A stretch of DNA of 64,000 bases from an uncultured Myxococcales bacterium (GTDB lineage: Bacteria; Myxococcota_A; UBA9042). Below, in pieces: positions 351 to 31,223 of the stretch. How positions within the stretch are numbered: position 1 is the stretch's first letter; each line of letters starts with the position of its first letter. The position numbers and the translations under genes are program-made. Location: the NCBI GenBank assembly GCA_903842345.1, contig CAIMLR010000002.1:124001-188000 (forward strand). Reading direction: 5' to 3'. Below the pieces are notes generated by a model. It did no database searches, was not told where the DNA came from, and saw only the letters and a program-made list of their open reading frames with translations.

Positions 351-1355
351 TCAAGGCGCGTAGAGCAACAGCAGCGCGGTCTGGCAGACATTGGCCAGGG
401 CGTGATGCGCGGCGGGGGCAAAAACCCCACGACTGCGCTCGGCCAGCCAGGCAAAAAGCAGGCCGGGGAAGAAGACGAGGAGCCGCTGCGGCGCGGGCAC
501 GAGCACCAAATGGATCAGCGCAAACAGCGCCGCGGAGAGAATGTGGGGCCAGCCAAACGGCACGCCGAGCAGGCGGCGGCGCACGGGAAAGCACGCGCGG
601 AGGCGGCCGAGCACGTAGCCGCGAAAGAACATCTCCTCGGGCAGCGCAACGACGATCAGTTGGCTGAACAGCCACGGCAGCAGCCAGCCGAGCCCCGGCG
701 CCGCGTGGATGGGATTGTCGAGCGCCTCGCCTGTCGCGGCGGCCATCACCGCGCCGTCCGGCAGCGGCTGACCGCGCGCGTCGCGCACCTGCAAGTCGCG
801 CGCGGCGATCGGCGCAAGCAGGAGGCGGCCTCCCGGCGGCAGCGTGCGCGGCGCACACAGCGGCTGTTCGCTGCACGCGGGCTGCACGAGCACGGCCAGG
901 CGCATGTGGTTTTCCACAGCCAGACCGCGGCGATCGTCCAGCAGCACGATGTGATCGGCGGCGGACGCACCGCGGCCCTGAAAGGCAATGCCCGCGCTTT
1001 CAAGCGCCGCGACGCCCAGCCGGCGATGGTGCAGGACGCGAACCTGCAGGACGTCCAGCGCGAGGGCGAAGAGCGGCAAGACGACGAGGCTCACGAGCAC
1101 GCCCTGGGCCAAACCGCGCCACAGCGGCGCGCGGTCGATGCCCAGTGGATCGGCCAGCGCCGGCAAGCCGCGGCGGACGCCTGAGCGCAGCACCAGGAGC
1201 GGCACCGCGACGAACGTCACCGCAGACAACAGCCCGGCGAGCGGCGCCAGCCACGCAACCGCCAGGGCGGCGCGATCAATCAGCCACAGCGCCGCCGCGG
1301 CGAGCAGCATCGCCACGGCGATTTCCGCCAAAACTGTGCGTGGGTGTGGATTCAC
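351..1355 (-). CDS. CPBP-family (CAAX/Rce1-like) intramembrane metalloprotease
   Basis: A 334-residue multi-pass membrane protein with the three CPBP signatures in the C-terminal third: EExxxR (E240, E241 in EEMFFR), FxxxH (F278-H282, FALIHL) and HxxxN (H318-N322, HALAN). These acidic and His residues form the presumed intramembrane active site. About six hydrophobic segments are visible. A polar insert of roughly 100 residues between the early and catalytic membrane segments (about 105-220) is longer than in minimal CPBP proteins. Start ATG 1355 overlaps the stop of the upstream PilZ gene (ATGA), so the two are translationally coupled. CPBP proteins do several jobs, including prenyl-protein processing, bacteriocin immunity and C-terminal sorting-signal cleavage (myxosortase). 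The last is plausible because a MYXO-CTERM protein is encoded at 33.4 kb. Confidence 0.85.
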   Translation of the reverse strand: MNPHPRTVLAEIAVAMLLAAAALWLIDRAALAVAWLAPLAGLLSAVTFVAVPLLVLRSGVRRGLPALADPLGIDRAPLWRGLAQGVLVSLVVLPLFALALDVLQVRVLHHRRLGVAALESAGIAFQGRGASAADHIVLLDDRRGLAVENHMRLAVLVQPACSEQPLCAPRTLPPGGRLLLAPIAARDLQVRDARGQPLPDGAVMAAATGEALDNPIHAAPGLGWLLPWLFSQLIVVALPEEMFFRGYVLGRLRACFPVRRRLLGVPFGWPHILSAALFALIHLVLVPAPQRLLVFFPGLLFAWLAERSRGVFAPAAHHALANVCQTALLLLYAP

Positions 1356-2770
1356 GGGCCTTGGAGCGCCTGCAGGAATGCGCGGAATGCGCCTTTGTGA
1401 CGCCCCTCGTCGGCCCGCTCAATGTGCATCACAAAGCGCTTGCCCGTCGGCGTGTCCGTTGTGACCTGCAGCAGCTTCCCGGTCAGTTGCACGGTCCGCC
1501 AGGCGTTCTCGACGCGCACGGGCAGATGGATGACGATCACTTCATCGAGGTCCGGCGCGTCGCCCTGGGTGACGACGCATGCGAGCTGTTCCGCGATGCC
1601 GATCAACTGCCCCGGAATCAGCTGATTCTGACGCAGGAAGGTAATGGGCACGTCAGCGGCAACCAGCATCCGGGCGCCTTCTGGCTTGCGCGGCCGGATC
1701 GGCAGGGGGTCGGCCGGATCGGTGCGGTCGGCCGACGGGTCAAACGGCTGGCTGGACGGCAGGCCGTGCGGAGCGACCATCGGGTGGTTGTTGCCAATCG
1801 CCGGCGGGCGGACAAAACGGCCACCCAGGGTGTCCTGGGCCACAACGCCTGACGCGTGATGAGCGGTCGGCGCCAGAACGGGGCGCTGCAGGACGTGCGC
1901 CGCGGAAGCGCGCGGATCGGTGACCAACCGCCGTTCTCCCGGTGCCAGCGCGTAGACGGGCCACGAGTGCGAGGAATCATCGCGCGTGCCGGAAGACGGA
2001 TCACCCCGCTCGCCAACGGCGACGGACAGACCGTCGTCCAGGCTGTCAAAAAGCCCGCTCGGGTCTTTTTCCGCGAGCGGCGACGACGGCCGGTTGCGAG
2101 TGGCGTCGAAAGCATGCGGCAACAACGCGCCCGACGGGCCACGCGGAACCGCCACCTTCACGGGCGCTTGGGGCTCCAACTGGACGGGATGTTGTGCGGA
2201 TTGGCGCGCCGGCTCCAGCACCTGGGATTCCCGGGAAGCCACAGCTCCGACGCGGTGCACGGGCGGCGACCAAACACCGAGCGCCTGGTGCACGCTGCTC
2301 GGCCGCGTCGGCGCGGGCGGCGTGCCATGCGGGGTCACGCTGTTCGGCTCTTCGGGCGGTCGACCGTCCGCCGCGGGCAGAAACACGTATTCCGCTGAAC
2401 GCCCCGGCGTCAGGTCCGCATCGCCCTGGACGCTGATGTGCATGACATGACGCAGCACCCAGAACAGCGGATCCGGTCCCGTGTCGCAGCGCGCTTTCTG
2501 CCACGCCACGGCGAAGCCGATCGGTCCCGGGCTGCCCATCTGGGAATTGCGCGTGACGATGCCGTGGAAGTTGACGATGGGGCCGTCGCCGCCGCCGGCG
2601 CGCAATTCGACGACGACTTCCGCGCCGATCGTCGGTGGATTGCGCGTGGTGAACGAGGCGCCGGTCGGGCTGGTGTCCGTGCAAACAACGTCAAAGCGCA
2701 CCCGGCCGATGGTGGCCGTCGCTCGGATCAGCGCGGGTTGCCGCGGACTTCGCCGTCTCTCGTCAAACAT
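1352..2770 (-). CDS. PilZ-domain protein with long disordered linker and second PilZ-like domain
   Basis: The N-terminus carries a PilZ signature: an Arg-rich RRRSPR box followed by DTSPTGASF (D/NxSxxG), the usual cyclic-di-GMP contact motifs. A Pro/Ser-rich, probably disordered stretch of about 230 residues follows. The last 110 residues have the length and beta-rich pattern of a second PilZ-like barrel, but I see no RxxxR box there. I start it at ATG 2770 (MFDERRR); a TTG at 2800 would add ten residues with no family similarity. A c-di-GMP effector role is inferred. The overlap with the downstream CPBP protease gene suggests co-expression, not a shown partnership. Confidence 0.75.
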   Translation of the reverse strand: MFDERRRSPRQPALIRATATIGRVRFDVVCTDTSPTGASFTTRNPPTIGAEVVVELRAGGGDGPIVNFHGIVTRNSQMGSPGPIGFAVAWQKARCDTGPDPLFWVLRHVMHISVQGDADLTPGRSAEYVFLPAADGRPPEEPNSVTPHGTPPAPTRPSSVHQALGVWSPPVHRVGAVASRESQVLEPARQSAQHPVQLEPQAPVKVAVPRGPSGALLPHAFDATRNRPSSPLAEKDPSGLFDSLDDGLSVAVGERGDPSSGTRDDSSHSWPVYALAPGERRLVTDPRASAAHVLQRPVLAPTAHHASGVVAQDTLGGRFVRPPAIGNNHPMVAPHGLPSSQPFDPSADRTDPADPLPIRPRKPEGARMLVAADVPITFLRQNQLIPGQLIGIAEQLACVVTQGDAPDLDEVIVIHLPVRVENAWRTVQLTGKLLQVTTDTPTGKRFVMHIERADEGRHKGAFRAFLQALQGP

Positions 2771-4094: not shown

Positions 4095-6461
4095 TTAATT
4101 GCGAAGCGGCTTGCCGGTGGTGAGCATGTGCAGGATCCGGTCCTGCGTCTCCTGCATGCCCGCCAGCTTCAGGAACGACTCGCGCTCCAGATCCAGCAGA
4201 TCCTGCTCCGTCCGCAGACCGCCGCGCTCGCCGCCGCAGATCACGCGGGCGACTTCGTGGCCGATCGTGCAATCGTGCTTGCTGGCCTGACCGGCGAGCC
4301 GGAACGTGTACAGCGCCATGTCAAACGTGGCGATGGCTTCCGCACCCGGCAGGTTCAAGTTGTCCGGCGCGTTGGCGGGACGGTAGCCCTGCGACGCGAG
4401 GTTGACGACGAGACGGCGGGCGTCCTCGATCCGGCGTTCCGGATCCACGCTGATGCTGTCCAGGTCGCGGAGGAAGCCGAGCTCGCGCGCGTTGCCCGCG
4501 CCCGTGGACACTTTGGCCAGCGCGATGGTCTCAAACGCCCGCTGCAGGAGCGGCAGGCGATCGACCTTGGATTCCGCCGGCACGCCGTTGAGCGAACGGA
4601 CCGTCAGTTCCTTGGTGCCGCCCGCGCCGGGAATCAGGCCGACGCCCACTTCCACGAGGCCCATGTAGGTCTCGCTCGCGGCCTGCATGCGGCTGGCGTG
4701 CATCGCGACTTCGCAGCCGCCGCCAAACGTCATGCTGTGCGGCGCCGAGACGATCGGCGCGTGGCTGTACTTGAAGGCCATGAAGAGGTCCTGGAACATC
4801 TTCGTCGCGCCTTCCAGCTCCTTCCACTTGCCTTCGCCGACCAACTGCACGACGAACGCGAGGTTCGCGCCCACCGAGAAGTTGCTGCCGTCGTTGGCGA
4901 TGACCATGCCGGTCCAGCCCTTGCTGTCGATCTGCTCCAGGCCTTTCCAGCCCATCTCGATGATCTTGTCGTCGAGCGCGTTCATCTTGCTCTTGAAGCA
5001 GAGGCAGAGCACGTTGTCGCCGATGTCGAGCAGCTGCGCCGACTCGTTCTCTGCCACGACCTTGCCGGCCGCGCGCACGTCCTTCAGGTGAATGCCCGGC
5101 AGCGCGGGAACGGCGATCTGCGTCGCCTTGGCCGTGGTCTGCTTGCCGTCCGAGTAGAACGTCGTCTTGCCCGAGGCGAGCAGCTTCTCCACGATCTTCG
5201 GCACCGCGCGGCCTTCCGCTTTCAGGCGGTCGACGACGTTCTGCACGCCAATCGCATCCCAAATCTGGAACGGCCCGAGCTGCCAGTTGAAGCCCCATTG
5301 CATCGCGCGGTCGATCGAGATCACGTCGTCCGCGATCTCACCCAGCAGGTCCGCCGCGTAAACCAGCGAGTGCGACAGCGCCTGCCACGCAAACTTGCCG
5401 CCGCGATCGGTGCTCTCGACGATGGCCTTGATGCGCGCGCCGGTGTCGCGGATCTTCTTGGTCTCGGCGAGGCACGGGAAATCCGCCTTGATCTGCGGCA
5501 CGTACGTCTGCGTCGCCGGATCCAGCACCTGAATGTCCTTGCCGACCTTCTTGTAGAAGCCCGCGCCCGCTTTTTGGCCCGTCGCGCCGGCTTTGATGAG
5601 CGCGGCGATGACCGGGTGCAGGTTGAAGATGTCGCGGTTCGGGTCGCTCTGCAGGTTGTCGTAGCAGTTCTGGCTGACATGGCCGAGCGTGTCCAGACCG
5701 ACGACGTCGGCCGTGCGGAACACGGCGCTCTTGGGACGTCCCATCGGCTCGCCGCACAGCGCGTCGATTTCGTCGATGCGGTAGCCTTGGCTGAACGCGA
5801 TGTTCACCGCGCGCATCATGTCGTGCACGCCGATGCGGTTGGCGATGAAGTTGATGGTGTCCTTGGCGTCGACAACGCCCTTGCCGAGGTCGTCGCGGCA
5901 GAACGCCTGCATCTTGGCCGTCGTCGCCGGGTCGGTAAACTCGCCCGCGACGATTTCCACAAGTTTCATGTAACGCACGGGATTGAAGAAGTGCGTGATG
6001 AGGAAGTTCTTCTTGAAGCCTTCCGGCTTGCCCTCGGCCATCGTCGCGAGCGGAATGCCAGACGTGTTGGAGGAGATGATGGTGTGCGGCTTGCGGAACG
6101 GCTCAATCGCGCTGAACACCGCGTTCTTGATGTCGAGGCGCTCCGTCACCGCTTCCACGATCCAGTCGCACGCGCCAAGCGCCGCGAGGTCGTCCTGCAA
6201 GTTGCCGAGCACGATGCGCGAGGCATCAGCCGTGCGCTGGAACGCTGCGGGCTTGAGCGCCAACGCCTTGTCCAGGCCAGACTTGCAGATGGCGTTGCGC
6301 GCGGCCTTGGTCTTGGCCGTGCCATCGGCCGCAGGCGCATCCCTGGGAACGATATCGACCAGCAAAACGTCGATGCCAGCCGAAGCGAGATGAGCGGCAA
6401 TGCCTGTGCCCATAACGCCGGCGCCAACGACACCGACGCGACTGATGCGGTGCTGCGACAT
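4095..6461 (-). CDS. fadN: 3-hydroxyacyl-CoA dehydrogenase / enoyl-CoA hydratase fusion (FadN type)
   Basis: A 788-residue bifunctional beta-oxidation enzyme. The NAD-binding dehydrogenase comes first (GAGVMGTGIA at about residues 12-21, then SNTSG and a downstream dehydrogenase helical domain). A crotonase-fold hydratase comes last (FGGGCEVAMHA, then GLIPGAGGTKE). This order, dehydrogenase then hydratase, and the length match FadN (YusL), not E. coli FadB, which has the reverse order. The start is ATG 6461 with GAGG about 7 nt upstream. It is followed by the thiolase gene after 39 nt, giving the hydration, oxidation and thiolysis steps in one transcript. No acyl-CoA dehydrogenase is visible nearby. 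Confidence 0.92.
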   Translation of the reverse strand: MSQHRISRVGVVGAGVMGTGIAAHLASAGIDVLLVDIVPRDAPAADGTAKTKAARNAICKSGLDKALALKPAAFQRTADASRIVLGNLQDDLAALGACDWIVEAVTERLDIKNAVFSAIEPFRKPHTIISSNTSGIPLATMAEGKPEGFKKNFLITHFFNPVRYMKLVEIVAGEFTDPATTAKMQAFCRDDLGKGVVDAKDTINFIANRIGVHDMMRAVNIAFSQGYRIDEIDALCGEPMGRPKSAVFRTADVVGLDTLGHVSQNCYDNLQSDPNRDIFNLHPVIAALIKAGATGQKAGAGFYKKVGKDIQVLDPATQTYVPQIKADFPCLAETKKIRDTGARIKAIVESTDRGGKFAWQALSHSLVYAADLLGEIADDVISIDRAMQWGFNWQLGPFQIWDAIGVQNVVDRLKAEGRAVPKIVEKLLASGKTTFYSDGKQTTAKATQIAVPALPGIHLKDVRAAGKVVAENESAQLLDIGDNVLCLCFKSKMNALDDKIIEMGWKGLEQIDSKGWTGMVIANDGSNFSVGANLAFVVQLVGEGKWKELEGATKMFQDLFMAFKYSHAPIVSAPHSMTFGGGCEVAMHASRMQAASETYMGLVEVGVGLIPGAGGTKELTVRSLNGVPAESKVDRLPLLQRAFETIALAKVSTGAGNARELGFLRDLDSISVDPERRIEDARRLVVNLASQGYRPANAPDNLNLPGAEAIATFDMALYTFRLAGQASKHDCTIGHEVARVICGGERGGLRTEQDLLDLERESFLKLAGMQETQDRILHMLTTGKPLRN

Positions 6462-6640: not shown

Positions 6641-8575
6641 TCAGGGCATCTTGACCGTGAGGTCCTGATCGATGGCGGGTACAGGCAGATCGGTGATCTT
6701 TCCCGACGGCCACCACACGCGCACGAGGTCGATCTTCGCGACGGAGCCCAAGCCAAAACGCGCAACGGGCGCATGTTTCGCGCCCCAGCCCGTCGCTGCC
6801 AGGACCTGCAGTTCCTGCACGTGGCCCTGCGCCCAGACTTGCACAAGCGCGCCCAACACCGGACCCACGCCATCGACGGCGTGCACATTCAACCAGTGAT
6901 TGCCCTGCTGCGTGTCATTGCGCCAGACGCCGATCTCGCCGTTGCCGTAGGTGAGAAACAGGTCGAGATCCCCGTCGTGATCGTAGTCGCCCGCGGCGCC
7001 GACTGGGCTTGTGAAGTCCGAGATCAGGCCGTTGGGCCAGGGCAGCTTTTGAACGGCGAAGTGACCGCCTTGATTCTGCCCGACGAGGTGATAGCCGGGG
7101 AGGAAGATGCTCGAGTCGCCGTCCTCGACCTGACCGACCTTGCCAGGCGTGGTGGCCGATGAAACCGTCATCGCGTAGTCGGGCGAACCGTCGCGGTCCC
7201 AGTCTTCGGCGAACGCCGCCCAGTTGACCGTGTCGATGGTGTCGGGCCAGACGCCCCAAGCGGCGCTGGCATCCTCAAAGCCCGCCGCAGTCGCATGGTA
7301 GAGCGTCGCGGGACCCCAGTCGGTCACCAACAGGTCGTCGCGGTGGTCACCGTCAAAATCAGCGACCGCGGAGCCCATGATGTGGGCATACGGGCGCATG
7401 CCGACTTGCTTTTTCAGCGGTGCAAACCCGTCGCCGCGGTTGATGAACCAGCCGTGCTGGCCAAAATCATCGCCGATGAAGAGATCCGTGTGGCCATCGC
7501 GATCGATGTCGTGCGGCGTCACCGTCATCCCAGCGCCCGCGTCCACCGCGAACTTGGCGCTGTCGTCCACCAGCACGCCAGCCTGGTTGCGCAGCACCAC
7601 GTGCGGAGACGGCGGCGGCGCGCCGACGCAGCAGCTGGAGAGGTCGCTGGCGCCAGCCTTGGTCTGCATGCACGCCGCCGAGGCCACGTCCAGGCAGCAC
7701 AGGACATACGGCGCATCGGCGTTGCCGCACACGTACTTGCCCTGAATGCCAACGTCGAGATTGGTCGAAAGGTAGACGTCCGGGACGCCATCGCCGGTCA
7801 GATCGGTCACGGACACGGACCAGCCAAAAGGATAGACGCCGGGCAGGAACTTCGCGTTCACGAGGCTGCCGGCTTTGGCGCCCGTCAGCTCAAGCACCGC
7901 GAGCCCGGGCAAGGTCGTGACGAGGAGCTCAGGGTGACCGTCGTGCTCCAAATCGGCGACTGCACAGTCAAACGGCAGGCCCATCAGCTTGGTGCCGTGC
8001 ACCTCCACCTTCAGCGTGCCGTTCGACTGGCCACGGGCGATGACGAGCTTGCGACCGCCGATTGGCGAATCCGGGGCCATCAGGAACGTGAGATCCTCCA
8101 GACCGTCGCCGTCGAGGTCCTGCCAAATCATGCACCGATCCACCTGCCCGCCCATGGGCAGCGCGAGGACATCCGACGCGAACGTGAAGGCCAGGGGCTT
8201 GGCGGCAGTGGGGGCGGGCCAGCCCGGCAACGCGCACTGCCGACCGGGCGGCGGCGCAACGGCGGAGGACCCCGTGATCGGCGGCGCCCACGACGGCGTT
8301 GGATCGGGCGGACAGCCGATGGGGAGCGCGACCTCCGCGTCCAACGCAGCCGCGTCAAGCACGTCGCCTTTCGTGTCGGTGGAGTCCGCGGGCGCCAAAT
8401 CCGCCGCCGGCGTGGCGTCCGTATCGGCATCCTGCAGCGCGTCTACCGGTCCGGACAGTTCCAGCCCGCCAACGTCCACAGTCGCATCGAGGCCCGCATT
8501 GCCGCTCGATTGGCCACAACCGCTGAGGCACAGGGCAGCAAGGCATAGCGAAGCCGGGAAGACTTGCATCCCCAT
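6641..8575 (-). CDS. FG-GAP/VCBS repeat surface lipoprotein with ASPIC/UnbV C-terminal domain
   Basis: About 644 residues. The signal peptide ends in LSGC (lipobox), followed by an Asp/Ala-rich linker as in other lipoproteins of this window. The body has repeated calcium-binding-like DxDxDG loops (for example DLDGDG, DIDRDG, DFDGDH, DWDRDG, DYDHDGD) typical of a beta-propeller of FG-GAP/VCBS repeats. The last 80 residues match the ASPIC/UnbV pattern (GWGAKHAP, FGLG, VWWPSGK). It is predicted to sit on the cell surface as a binding or adhesion protein; the ligand is unknown. An upstream in-frame extension to 8671 is possible, but only the ATG at 8575 (or 8569) gives a proper signal peptide. 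It stands alone on the minus strand. Confidence 0.85.
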   Translation of the reverse strand: MGMQVFPASLCLAALCLSGCGQSSGNAGLDATVDVGGLELSGPVDALQDADTDATPAADLAPADSTDTKGDVLDAAALDAEVALPIGCPPDPTPSWAPPITGSSAVAPPPGRQCALPGWPAPTAAKPLAFTFASDVLALPMGGQVDRCMIWQDLDGDGLEDLTFLMAPDSPIGGRKLVIARGQSNGTLKVEVHGTKLMGLPFDCAVADLEHDGHPELLVTTLPGLAVLELTGAKAGSLVNAKFLPGVYPFGWSVSVTDLTGDGVPDVYLSTNLDVGIQGKYVCGNADAPYVLCCLDVASAACMQTKAGASDLSSCCVGAPPPSPHVVLRNQAGVLVDDSAKFAVDAGAGMTVTPHDIDRDGHTDLFIGDDFGQHGWFINRGDGFAPLKKQVGMRPYAHIMGSAVADFDGDHRDDLLVTDWGPATLYHATAAGFEDASAAWGVWPDTIDTVNWAAFAEDWDRDGSPDYAMTVSSATTPGKVGQVEDGDSSIFLPGYHLVGQNQGGHFAVQKLPWPNGLISDFTSPVGAAGDYDHDGDLDLFLTYGNGEIGVWRNDTQQGNHWLNVHAVDGVGPVLGALVQVWAQGHVQELQVLAATGWGAKHAPVARFGLGSVAKIDLVRVWWPSGKITDLPVPAIDQDLTVKMP

Positions 8576-27671: not shown

Positions 27672-27690
27672 CGCTCAAAAGACCTTGCGG
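27661..27690. terminator. hairpin enclosing both stop codons of convergent genes
   Basis: CCGCGGTCT (27661-27669) pairs with AGACC-tt-GCGG (27680-27690), a 9-bp stem with a 2-nt bulge. The loop holds most of the PLD-like gene's TAG and all of the porin-like gene's TGA, which are only three bases apart. It is likely a shared bidirectional terminator, though without a T-tract. Confidence 0.5.
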
Positions 27691-29222
27691 ATGTCGATGA
27701 GCACCTGATCGTCGGTCCGGTACAGCCCGCCTGGACTCAGCAGCGGCCCGCCCGTGAATGCAGCGCCCAGGCCGGTTTGCCAGCCTTCAGCGAATTTCCA
27801 GCTCACGCGCGGCAGCGCCGCCCAGTCGCCCAGTGAAATGCCGTACATGCCGCCCGCCTGCAGCGCCCACGCCTGGCTCTCCCCGAATTTCCACTGCGCG
27901 CCGCCGGCGATCACGGCCTGATGCCGCGCCATCAGGAAGAGCGGCTGGTCTTTCGGCACGTCAATGGACCACTGGTACGTCGCCTCCACGACAACCGCCA
28001 GCGTATCGCCGTGCGTCCACTCCACGCCTGCGCCGGTCATCAGCATGGACGTCACGATCGGCGCGAACTGGTCCGTGAACACCACGCGCCCCAGCGCTGA
28101 TCCGACCTTGGGCGCATACGCCACGTCGCCGCGGACGATCCACCCCTCGGCCACTTCCACGCTCCATTGCCCGCCCAGTGTCAGGCGCCGCTGCCACTCC
28201 GCCGTCGCCAGGTCCAGCGGCCCCTTGCCCGAGCCCTGCACCGCCGCCTGCGCCGCCTGATACTCCGGGTCGCCCAGCAGCGCGACCTGCTTCTGGGTGT
28301 CAAAACCCACCGCGGCAATCTTGCCCAGCAGCGTTGCGATGTTGGGATCAAACCGCAGCAGCGGCATCCGGTCCCAGTTGAAGATCGCCGCCACGCCCAG
28401 CTCCCAGTCGCCGGTATTGACCAGCCAGCGCGCGCCCATCGACCCGGCGAGCGGCGTCGCGGGCGGCGGCTTGAGCGCCGTCGTGAGCGTGTCGCCCAGT
28501 TGCCGATCCAGCCGCAGATCCAGGTGCCGCAACATCTGGAACATACCCTGCGGCAGCGGCGGACCCACGTCCGGCCGCACCACCGCGGTGTCCGTCGCGA
28601 AGGGGCTGAAGCGATGCTCCGTGAAAAACGGCTGGAAGATGCCTTCAAACCGGCCACCGCCCAGCGGCTGGGACCAGCGCACCATCCAGTCGGCAAGCAG
28701 CGGCGTGTCGTCCGGGTTGAGCGCGCCCAGAATGCCCTGGCTGTAGTCCACGGGATTCCAGATGCGCCACGGACTCTGCAGCTCCAGCGCGCCCCACTGC
28801 ACGATGTCGCGGCCCACCGTCAGGCGGCCTGGACCCAGATCCCACTGCACGTACGCCTCGCGCAGCTCCGCGAGTTGATCGTAGCGCAGGCCAAAATCCG
28901 GAAAATGGCCGTTGACGTCGAGCTTCCACCCGTTGCTGTCGGTCCGCGCCGCTGACGTCCGCTGCCACAGTCGCGCGGCGATCTTCACGCGCATCGTCTC
29001 CGACACCGGATGGCGCAGATCCAAATCCAGGCGATTGCGCAGCGTCAGGAGGTCCTCGCCCGGCGCGTCCGCTTGCGTGTCGACGCCCAGCACGCTCATC
29101 CAAGTGCCGGAAAACAGCGTCGGCTCCTGCGCCTGCGCGGGCGACGCCAGCAGCGCAAGCACAAACGGCAGCAGCCAGATCGACTGCTTTGTGTTGCCGC
29201 GCATCGGACTTTCCGCCATCAT
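27675..29222 (-). CDS. outer-membrane beta-barrel protein (DUF1302-like)
   Basis: 515 residues with a signal peptide ending AQA before QEP. The mature part alternates hydrophobic and polar residues in many strands and contains VGRDIVQWGALE followed by WRIWNPVDYSQG, a pattern seen in the DUF1302 outer-membrane family. The final residue is Phe (RKVF), as usual for Bam-assembled barrels. I place the start at ATG 29222 (GAGGGG 5-6 nt upstream); the very long frame further upstream is antisense to other genes. In other bacteria DUF1302 proteins often accompany LolA-like proteins and RND/MMPL transporters; a LolA-like gene lies divergently 0.9 kb away. Confidence 0.75.
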   Translation of the reverse strand: MMAESPMRGNTKQSIWLLPFVLALLASPAQAQEPTLFSGTWMSVLGVDTQADAPGEDLLTLRNRLDLDLRHPVSETMRVKIAARLWQRTSAARTDSNGWKLDVNGHFPDFGLRYDQLAELREAYVQWDLGPGRLTVGRDIVQWGALELQSPWRIWNPVDYSQGILGALNPDDTPLLADWMVRWSQPLGGGRFEGIFQPFFTEHRFSPFATDTAVVRPDVGPPLPQGMFQMLRHLDLRLDRQLGDTLTTALKPPPATPLAGSMGARWLVNTGDWELGVAAIFNWDRMPLLRFDPNIATLLGKIAAVGFDTQKQVALLGDPEYQAAQAAVQGSGKGPLDLATAEWQRRLTLGGQWSVEVAEGWIVRGDVAYAPKVGSALGRVVFTDQFAPIVTSMLMTGAGVEWTHGDTLAVVVEATYQWSIDVPKDQPLFLMARHQAVIAGGAQWKFGESQAWALQAGGMYGISLGDWAALPRVSWKFAEGWQTGLGAAFTGGPLLSPGGLYRTDDQVLIDIRKVF

Positions 29223-29276
29223 TGCTGCCCCTCGGCGCCCGCCGCCATCCCCAGCCATTCTGCCCCGGTGAACGCA

Positions 29277-30107
29277 ATGACGCCAATGAGCCCGCAACCC
29301 TCGACCCTGCAACATTCTACGCTGGACGGCTTCGGCGGTCACCGGTCGCGTTTTGACGACATCCGCCTCGTGCATGAGCTGCTGGAAGAACTGCCCGAGC
29401 GTCTTGGCCTCCAGCCCGCGATGCCGCCGATGTTGCTGCCGTACTACAACGGCGTGGAGCCCGATGACTGCGGCGTCTCCGGTTTTGTGTTCCTGCCGGG
29501 CGGCCACCTGACGCTGCACACGTTCAGCTTTCGCGAATGCTACTTTGCCGACCTCGTCGCGCCCATGGCTTTTGACAACGGCGAACTGACCCGCCTGCTG
29601 CGGACCGCGCTGCCGACGCGCAACGTCGACGTGCACACGGCCCTGCGCCCCGAGCGTTTTGACGAAGTGCGCGTCCAGCCCGAGGACGATTTTGGCCCGC
29701 ACCTGCTGATCAACATTCAGGGCTACACGGGTCCGAACAACATGGACTCGCTGTTCCAGTTGTTTGACAACCTGCCGCCGCGCATCGACATGACGCCGAT
29801 CATGCGGCCGTACGTGCTGCGGTCCAAGACAGCGAACGGCACTTCGGTGCTGTCTGCGATGACGATGATCGCGGAGAGCCACATCGCGATCCACATCAAT
29901 GAAGCGACCCATGAGGCGTTCTTTGACATCTTCTCGTGCAAGTTCTTTGACACGACGGACGTGCTTGAGGAGCTCAAAGCGGCGTTCCCGGGCAAGAACC
30001 ACTCCGTGCAGCTGATTGCCCGCGGTTGTGGCTATCGCACGCGGCGCACGGAGCGCGAGCCGGAGCACGCGCGCACCAAGGCGTGGCTGCAGTCGCGGCC
30101 GGGCTAG
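29277..30107 (+). CDS. tandem-duplicated S-adenosylmethionine decarboxylase-like protein, first domain inactive
   Basis: 276 residues made of two SpeD-type domains. The C-terminal one (about 140-245) keeps the pyruvoyl set: E200-S201 cleavage site in IAESHIAIH, H206 (+5) and C221 (+20), in exact register with Ser63, His68 and Cys83 of Thermotoga SpeD. The N-terminal one (about 16-120) aligns along the same pattern (VSGFVFL, HTFSF, ADLV). There Gly76 replaces the Ser, His81 is kept and Pro96 replaces the Cys, so it cannot form pyruvoyl. Each domain is near the size of one bacterial SpeD. The substrate may be AdoMet, for spermidine synthesis, or another amino acid, since some SpeD homologues decarboxylate arginine or ornithine. 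No speE is adjacent. ATG 29277 follows GGTGAA; 29286 is an alternative. Confidence 0.8.
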   Translation: MTPMSPQPSTLQHSTLDGFGGHRSRFDDIRLVHELLEELPERLGLQPAMPPMLLPYYNGVEPDDCGVSGFVFLPGGHLTLHTFSFRECYFADLVAPMAFDNGELTRLLRTALPTRNVDVHTALRPERFDEVRVQPEDDFGPHLLINIQGYTGPNNMDSLFQLFDNLPPRIDMTPIMRPYVLRSKTANGTSVLSAMTMIAESHIAIHINEATHEAFFDIFSCKFFDTTDVLEELKAAFPGKNHSVQLIARGCGYRTRRTEREPEHARTKAWLQSRPG

Positions 30108-30122
30108 TTCGGGAGGCAAGAA

Positions 30123-30887
30123 ATGCGCAAGTTGTCGGCGATTGTGGTGATGGCGGCGCTGTTTGCCGCCAACCTCGCGGAAGCGGCGGACGATCCGGCG
30201 GCGCGCAAGCTGCTGGACGCGGTCATGGCCAAGAACGCCGCGGGTTTCCAGGCGGGCCAGTCCAAGACCGCGCTGACGCTGCGGCTGGCGTCCGGCAAGG
30301 AAAAGACCTGGATGACGCTGGCGCGCGTGGTGCGCAAGGACGGCAAGATGCGGTCGCGCATCACGTTCCTGCAGCCGGCGGAGGACGCGGGCATCGAGCT
30401 GCTCATGCTGGAGCAGGGCAAGGGCCAGGCGGCGCAGCAGTTCCTGTGGCTGCCCAAGATGCGGCGGCTGCGGCGGATCGGCGGGTCGCAGCGCAACGCG
30501 GCGTTCATGGACACGGACTTCAGCTTTGGCGATCTGGACAGCCACGGGATGCAGGGCGGCGAGACGAAGAAGCTCGGCAACGAGGCGGTGGGCGGCGTGC
30601 CGTGCGCGCACGTGGAAGTGACGACGCCGGATCCGGATGAGGCGTACAGCAGGATCGAGCTGTGGATTGACGAGAAGTTGTCCGTGCCGCGGCAAATGAC
30701 GTTCTACGGCAAGGACGGCAAGCTGGTGAAGACGCTGACCGTGGACGCGATTGACGGCAGCACGCTGAAGAAATTCCACATGCAGAACCACGTGCGCGGA
30801 TCGACGACGACGGTGGAGACGCGCGAAATCGACACGAAGGTCGTGCTGCCCGACGCGGCGTTTCAGCCTGAAGCGCTGGGGCAGTAG
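30123..30887 (+). CDS. LolA-like outer-membrane lipoprotein-sorting family protein
   Basis: 254 residues with a signal peptide (AEA before ADD). The mature part follows the LolA-like family pattern (PF17131 type): RSRITFLQPAEDAGIELL, then QFLWLPKMRRLRRI and DTDFSFGDL. Such proteins have the half-barrel fold that binds lipids or lipoproteins and often work with MMPL/RND exporters and DUF1302 barrels. GGGAGG lies 7 nt upstream of ATG 30123, and the SpeD-like gene ends 15 nt before. The cargo is unknown. Confidence 0.78.
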   Translation: MRKLSAIVVMAALFAANLAEAADDPAARKLLDAVMAKNAAGFQAGQSKTALTLRLASGKEKTWMTLARVVRKDGKMRSRITFLQPAEDAGIELLMLEQGKGQAAQQFLWLPKMRRLRRIGGSQRNAAFMDTDFSFGDLDSHGMQGGETKKLGNEAVGGVPCAHVEVTTPDPDEAYSRIELWIDEKLSVPRQMTFYGKDGKLVKTLTVDAIDGSTLKKFHMQNHVRGSTTTVETREIDTKVVLPDAAFQPEALGQ

Positions 30888-30890
30888 CGC

Positions 30891-31223
30891 GTGGAGCTGT
30901 CGATCTGCGCGGTGTGCCGCAAAAAGCCGGGCGAGGTCTGCGATTCGCTGAAAGACCTGGAGACCGAAGCGCGCGACTGGGCCAAGGCCAGGCAGCAGAA
31001 ACTGACGGTGAAGCGCGAGCCGTGCCTGTCGGGCTGCATCCAGGGGCTGACGGTGTTGGTGGCGACGGTGGAAGGGTCGATTCGTTGCCAGCGCGTGCAC
31101 ACGAAGGTCGAGCTGCGGGCGATCCTGGACCACGCCGAGGCGAAGATTCACGCGCCGGTGGCGACGCCGGTGGATGGGTTCGTGCTGTCGCGGACGAATT
31201 GGGCGGAGTGGGACGCCGAATAG
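30891..31223 (+). CDS. small Cys-rich putative metal-binding protein (DUF1636-like)
   Basis: 110 residues, starting GTG 30891, three nucleotides after the LolA-like stop. Cys residues are arranged as CAVC, a further Cys at 17, and CLSGC at 46-50, resembling the thioredoxin-like [2Fe-2S] or metal-binding fold of DUF1636 proteins. There is no signal peptide, so it is cytosolic. The function is unknown; family placement is by Cys pattern only and uncertain. It ends 35 nt from a convergent metzincin gene. Confidence 0.55.
   Translation: MELSICAVCRKKPGEVCDSLKDLETEARDWAKARQQKLTVKREPCLSGCIQGLTVLVATVEGSIRCQRVHTKVELRAILDHAEAKIHAPVATPVDGFVLSRTNWAEWDAE

Follow-up and report, generated by a model that had tools for sequence, protein, structure and literature searches.

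The window (the whole 64,000-nucleotide stretch of DNA that was analyzed) encodes a 276-aa protein with two domains of the prokaryotic class 1b SpeD family in one chain, of which only the C-terminal one retains the full set of catalytic residues. As an overall explanation of the sequence patterns, we moderately favor a fused pseudo-dimer with a single composite site, which would most likely be an arginine decarboxylase. Most likely, the protein makes agmatine (or putrescine) in cells where the enzyme that usually catalyzes this reaction is missing.

Domain composition and catalytic residues of the tandem protein

The gene, its parts, and its immediate neighbors are as follows.

27675 to 29219, minus strand: divergent DUF1302-like outer-membrane protein (PF06980, 4.5e-6; synteny)
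29277 to 30107, plus strand: tandem SpeD-like gene, 276 aa, with the start at 29277 or a few codons downstream
29307 to 29657, plus strand: N-terminal SpeD domain, residues ~11 to 127 (PF02675, 8.4e-8; fold match to 1tlu)
29421 to 29483, plus strand: conserved loop, residues 49 to 69 (MPPMLLPYYNGVEPDDCGVSG; Thermotoga maritima ~36 to 56), a predicted trans-contributed active-site wall
29517 to 29537, plus strand: His81-Thr-Phe-Ser-Phe-Arg-Glu87, a predicted trans His and substrate segment (6 of 7 positions invariant in the N-terminal domain)
29688 to 30038, plus strand: C-terminal SpeD domain, residues ~138 to 254 (PF02675, 6e-12)
29874 to 29879, plus strand: Glu200-Ser201, predicted autocleavage and pyruvoyl-forming site (invariant in 22 homologs; aligns to T. 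maritima Glu62-Ser63)
29892 to 29894, plus strand: His206 (invariant in 22 homologs)
29937 to 29939, plus strand: Cys221, the catalytic acid position (T. maritima Cys83; invariant in 22 homologs)
30123 to 30887, plus strand: downstream LolA-like outer-membrane lipoprotein-sorting protein (PF17131, 1.2e-38; synteny)

The open reading frame begins with an ATG at 29277 and runs for 276 codons to a stop that ends at 30107; the position of the start is uncertain, as conservation in the family begins only at residues 11 to 13. Each half separately exceeds the curated 25-bit cut-off of the Pfam AdoMet_dc profile (PF02675), the N-terminal half with 33 bits (E = 8.4e-8) and the C-terminal half with 46 bits (E = 6e-12), and each is a member of this class 1b SpeD domain family. 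The whole chain scores 44.9 bits with the NCBIfam AdoMetDC equivalog TIGR03330, below the cut-off of 75.65 that marks AdoMetDC proper. Local alignment of the two halves with each other gave a score of 76, against a mean of 27 (standard deviation, 4.5; maximum, 48) in 500 shuffles. Chance resemblance or an unrelated N-terminal extension is ruled out by these scores, the PF02675 matches, and the fold alignment (see below).

In the C-terminal half, Ser193, Ser201, His206, and Cys221 reproduce the spacing of T. maritima Ser55, Ser63, His68, and Cys83 and constitute the full four-residue set. The equivalents in the N-terminal half are Ser68, Gly76, His81, and Pro96, such that only the counterparts of Ser55 and His68 are kept, and the offsets of +5 and +20 are equal in both halves (Ser201/His206/Cys221 and Gly76/His81/Pro96). 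Across 22 homologs, Gly75, Gly76, His77, His81, Ser193, Glu200, Ser201, His202, His206, and Cys221 are invariant, as are both residues at the T. maritima Ser55 position (Ser68 and Ser193), and Pro96 is kept in 21 of the 22. A sequence-only reading of this DNA had proposed two SpeD-sized domains with a dead first half and a live second half, and it had named Ser201, His206, and Cys221, with Gly76, His81, and Pro96 as their N-terminal counterparts, in family spacing. That spacing proved exact, the residue pattern is invariant or nearly so throughout the homologs, and the two domains were recovered both as PF02675 matches in each half and as a SpeD topology that occurs twice in the predicted structure.

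Among near relatives, dN/dS ranges from 0.013 to 0.075 for the dead half and from 0.042 to 0.109 for the live half, and it is lower for the dead half in all four comparisons. The dead half is therefore functional, and it is under tighter constraint than the live half. Its low values and invariant residues rule out simple decay into a pseudogene.

Predicted fold and a candidate composite active site

An AlphaFold2 model of the chain, computed with the 22-row alignment as input (pLDDT, 87.2; pTM, 0.87), has two copies of the SpeD secondary structure. Residues 8 to 127 of the model match T. maritima SpeD (1tlu; Z = 11.1; 2.1 Å over 113 residues), and the N-terminal SpeD fold, singled out beforehand as the point on which the two-domain reading could fail, is thus present in the model. 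The human AdoMetDC proenzyme is collinear with the whole chain (4 to 253 on 4 to 289; 214 residues, 3.3 Å, Z = 15.6). The topology of the model together with this match therefore predicts a two-sheet sandwich, like that of a SpeD dimer or of one eukaryotic protomer.

Class 1b SpeD is normally a homodimer with two symmetric sites, each of which takes its pyruvoyl Ser and Cys from one protomer and its His and substrate-binding segment from the partner (PMC1282579). In eukaryotic AdoMetDC, the first half provides Ser and Cys for the single site, the second half provides the processing His and ribose-binding Glu, and prokaryotic AdoMetDCs show the union of both eukaryotic half-site residue sets (PMC1282579). 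Retention of one site in a fused dimer predicts that the half without Ser and Cys keeps the partner set, and the N-terminal half does so. Among the 22 homologs, its stretch 51 to 68 and the segment His81 to Glu87 are invariant or nearly so, whereas the matching C-terminal stretches (182 to 192 and 207 to 213) vary, with entropies of up to 2.9 bits; the Ser201 and Cys221 strands of the C-terminal domain are invariant. Identity to four single-domain relatives is 47% for the N-terminal loop versus 22% for the C-terminal one, 66% for the C-terminal Ser core versus 30% for the N-terminal one, and 74% for the C-terminal Cys core versus 23% for the N-terminal one. The losses in the two halves are complementary, as judged from these alignments, and have the appearance of complementary decay of a symmetric dimer.

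On this pattern of conservation, we hold with considerable confidence to a composite-site architecture, in which the dead half is probably one-half of a single active site and not a separate allosteric unit. The dead domain had been suggested to be either an allosteric or a dimer-replacing unit; the second suggestion fits best, as the domain keeps the elements contributed in trans, and nothing of its own speaks for allostery. We envisage that a single-domain ancestor was joined to a second copy of itself and that one of the two symmetric sites was retained. The C-terminal domain would supply Cys221 and Ser201, the latter becoming the pyruvoyl group upon autocleavage at Glu200-Ser201, and the N-terminal domain would supply Ser68, His81, and the loops 49 to 69 and 81 to 87. 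The predicted products of self-cleavage are a long N-terminal chain (residues 1 to 200) and a short pyruvoyl chain (residues 201 to 276).

Polyamine pathway context and alternative readings

The host encodes a class 1a SpeD (TIGR03331, 464 bits; cut-off, 256) and a SpeE that scores over its equivalog cut-off, and it therefore needs putrescine. No recognizable pyridoxal phosphate (PLP)- or PvlArgDC-type arginine/ornithine decarboxylase was found in the host genome: we recovered neither a PF01276 nor a PF01862 (PvlArgDC-type) protein, and its sole PF02784 protein is LysA. As the assembly is 95.7% complete, the missing decarboxylase could be unassembled, and one of an unknown family is also possible. 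An arginase plus ornithine decarboxylase (ODC) route was rejected, the sole PF00491 protein of the host being HutG-like. The host has an aguB-aguA operon, the adjacent genes of which match those families best, with scores below the strict equivalog cut-offs.

Pairs of aguA and aguB occur in the tandem-bearing genomes G000 to G004, G007, G010, G012, G013, and G023 and probably in G015, whereas G006, G011, G016, G018, G021, and G026, which are tandem genomes with no strong AguA, instead encode an agmatinase over the TIGR01230 equivalog cut-off. Two further tandem genomes (G008 and G009) have only AguA-like proteins with no aguB adjoining, and no clear agmatine route was found in G005, G019, and G020, which are incomplete metagenome-assembled genomes (MAGs), all <85% complete. 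SpeA is present in G029, G032, and G034, all of which are without the tandem gene. None was found in the tandem genomes that were tested for it, and their extra PF02784 proteins are LysA/FslC-like and not SpeA. The association is not exclusive, since agmatine-using genes are also found in tandem-less genomes (e.g., G027 and G029).

The tandem gene itself lies outside any polyamine operon. The DUF1302-like and LolA-like genes adjoin it across most of the family (27675 to 30887 in the window); they are not polyamine genes, are uninformative with regard to the substrate, and are not obviously part of the system. A 1,158-aa open frame runs antisense to the tandem gene and its neighbors (27675 to 31151, minus strand), and its 3' part is the real DUF1302-like gene, while the remainder looks like a high-GC artifact.

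The nearest single-domain relative, in MW495066, is preceded by a canonical speD and followed by speE and the agmatinase gene speB. The same speD-speD-speE-speB layout occurs in Vampirovibrio, the SpeD2 of which is a proven arginine decarboxylase (PMC10407285). The row in MW495066.1 (245198 to 251581; speD, speD-like, speE, and speB) would amount to a full arginine-to-spermidine set if the speD-like gene encodes an arginine decarboxylase. Although MW495066 is called Microcystis phage MaAM05, it may be bacterial rather than phage. Taken together, the pathway gap, the agmatine-using genes, and the MW495066 layout favor an arginine decarboxylase, with ornithine as a possible substrate, and we consider L-arginine the probable substrate, if by a modest measure. 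The tandem enzyme would then convert L-arginine to agmatine, AguA and AguB (or agmatinase in relatives) would convert agmatine to putrescine, and the separate class 1a SpeD and SpeE would convert putrescine to spermidine. The SpeDA arginine decarboxylases are reported to be without a proline conserved in AdoMetDC (PMC10407285), which may be that of HTWP, its column here being deduced; the HTWP proline is absent in 20 of the 22 homologs (Glu209 in the window protein) but present in L039 and L040.

The same pseudo-dimer with one composite site could instead act on L-ornithine, as a SpeDC-like ODC that makes putrescine directly. A PLP-type ODC is likewise not found in the host genome, the known bacterial two-domain fusions use their C-terminal domain as an ODC (PMC10407285), and the tandem genomes G005 and G020 are without an agmatine route. 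However, nearly all of the well-assembled tandem genomes have AguBA or agmatinase, which an ODC would not need, and the residues that immediately precede the Ser in the C-terminal core (IAESH) include neither Gln nor Thr; the ODC group (SpeDC) is reported to have Gln, Thr, Phe, and Tyr as its four diagnostic residues (PMC10407285), the exact columns of which are uncertain here. We regard ornithine, the main alternative, as rather unlikely on this evidence.

It is improbable that the protein is a second AdoMetDC regulated by its dead partner domain, i.e., a one-chain version of the trypanosome prozyme. Its SpeD family membership (PF02675), the precedent for catalytically dead AdoMetDC partners (PMC5201418), and the HVWPE kept in the C-terminal domain of the deepest homolog (L040) are in line with such a role, but the host already has its high-scoring class 1a SpeD, position 85 of the N-terminal domain (the would-be trans ribose-binding Glu) is Phe, Tyr, or Val, and the TIGR03330 score falls short of the cut-off.

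His206 and Ser193 are invariant, although the composite-site model assigns neither of them a part in catalysis at the live site; they may have a structural or folding role. Their retention would allow a C-C homodimer to hold all four residues, with live domains pairing across a chain-chain dimer and the dead domain as a separate allosteric or effector-binding unit, but this is highly improbable, given that the C-terminal segments needed in trans (182 to 192 and 207 to 213) are the variable ones, their N-terminal versions are invariant, and the model aligns both domains together with a single human protomer.

Distribution, origin, and relationship to other SpeD fusions

The fusion is present in ~23 Myxococcota genomes, and the family that carries it consists of lake and groundwater myxobacteria. 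A profile scan of genome contigs recovered 15 tandem loci, a search of relatives placed the tandem in 22 of 52 genomes, nearly all of them from one Myxococcota family (with G023 and G026 in addition), and sampling 377 genomes across the phylum brought in G200, which belongs to a different family. The 21 other aligned copies are 48 to 96% identical to the window protein, and the live/dead pattern is the same in 22 of 22. A tandem protein with the same neighbors and 73% identity also occurs on CAMDBH010000029.1 (L017), a contig titled as a Klebsiella pneumoniae MAG; this label is probably wrong. A family-profile scan of viral contigs found no tandem copy, and the plasmids and phages searched yielded single-domain matches only.

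In a tree of the separated halves, the N-terminal rows form one clade and the C-terminal rows another, with a support of 100 each, and one fusion event therefore explains all sampled copies. The closest relatives found for both halves are the single-domain SpeDs of MW495066 (speH_1), the megaphage LR756501, and two IMG/VR contigs (together L046, L047, L053, and L054), which contain all four residues and are presumed homodimers. The halves of the window protein score 137 to 177 against MW495066 speH_1 and L053 (~27 when shuffled) and only 49 to 59 against the canonical speD of MW495066. A branch whose support (85/80) is not strong separates the N-terminal rows, the C-terminal rows, and these single-domain proteins from the rest of the tree, and the tree does not choose among N+C, C+single, and N+single branching orders (AU P = 0.42 to 0.51).

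The sequence-only reading had also proposed a fusion independent of the eukaryotic one, with the opposite polarity. The proximity of both halves to one bacterial/phage single-domain clade supports the independent origin, and the residue pattern and the two-half fold alignment agree with the polarity. Eukaryotic class 2 AdoMetDC shares with the tandem model both the two-half sandwich fold (Z = 15.6) and the division of the site into a half that bears Ser/Cys and a half that bears the His and substrate segment (PMC1282579), but its pyruvoyl Ser is in the first half, in contrast to Ser201 in the second half of the tandem protein (Gly76 in the first). The two are 8 to 9% identical in the structural alignment and probably differ in substrate.

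Li et al. (2023) reported SpeD-SpeDC fusions with two pyruvoyl sites, along with versions in which the C-terminal half is degraded, and proposed these fusions as models for the eukaryotic enzyme (PMC10407285). Those of Desulfotignum phosphitoxidans and "Candidatus Omnitrophica" likewise combine two class 1b domains in one chain of ~280 to 320 aa, with both domains self-cleaving (the N-terminal one as an AdoMetDC and the C-terminal one as an ODC) and with speE next to them (PMC10407285). Unlike them, the tandem protein has one live site (Gly76 in the N-terminal domain of 22 of 22) and no linked polyamine gene. Direct descent from such a fusion (N from SpeD and C from SpeDC) is not favored, because both halves are nearest to the same single-domain clade in a comparison that covered this clade and canonical SpeD. 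The SpeD plus degraded SpeDC of Victivallis vadensis and Desulfobacter is also a bacterial fusion with one dead half (PMC10407285), but in the V. vadensis type the N-terminal half is live and the C-terminal half dead, the reverse of the tandem protein. The trypanosomatid AdoMetDC and prozyme are likewise live and dead homologous partners; unlike the one-chain tandem, they are separate class 2 chains with allosteric activation (PMC5201418). The SpeDA arginine decarboxylases have the chemistry predicted for the tandem protein and share a gene layout with its nearest single-domain relative, but the known ones are single-domain proteins (PMC10407285), in contrast to the two-domain tandem, whose arginine activity is a prediction.

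We found no fusion with a degraded N-terminal and a live C-terminal half, or any such fusion in Myxococcota, in the open-access literature. The fusion with a live C-terminal and a dead N-terminal half therefore appears to be new; bacterial fusions with a dead C-terminal half have already been published (PMC10407285). We put at about even the chance that the family is an independent bacterial mirror of eukaryotic AdoMetDC, in which the opposite site was kept in an arginine decarboxylase, and that unfused live/dead pairs of the same phylum (see below) act as heterodimers. The case that eukaryotic AdoMetDC arose from a homodimer that was fused and then decayed on one side rests mostly on structure. 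The tandem family would be an independent bacterial instance of such an event that ended the opposite way and can be viewed alongside its single-domain relatives, and hence the rule that a symmetric dimer is fused, loses one site, and splits its residues between the halves becomes directly testable (His81 versus His206). It would also fill a gap in the polyamine pathway of a widespread family of freshwater myxobacteria.

Adjacent, unfused pairs of a SpeD and a dead SpeD-like protein were observed in other Myxococcota.

L162, 6808 to 7176 (plus strand) and 7173 to 7508 (plus strand): adjacent SpeD and dead SpeD-like pair
L161, 857 to 1243 (plus strand) and 1329 to 1697 (minus strand): adjacent SpeD and dead SpeD-like pair
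L163, 4642 to 5046 (minus strand) and ~4379 to 4642 (minus strand): adjacent SpeD and dead SpeD-like pair

In these genomes (G092, G141, and G170), a live-looking single-domain SpeD that has lost an intact HxWPE adjoins a SpeD frame that is over the PF02675 cut-off, has no pyruvoyl Ser, and keeps HSWPEH or HTWPEL. In G092 and G170, the two genes share a strand and either overlap or directly adjoin each other; in G141, they are convergent. To judge from these motifs, such pairs are possible unfused heterodimers with complementary half-sites and the same division of labor. Separately, a viral fold search returned at its top a 357-aa SpeD-like protein of Bacillus phage vB_BcoS-136 (BFVD A0A3G3BVD9; 238 columns), which is possibly another two-domain or enlarged SpeD.
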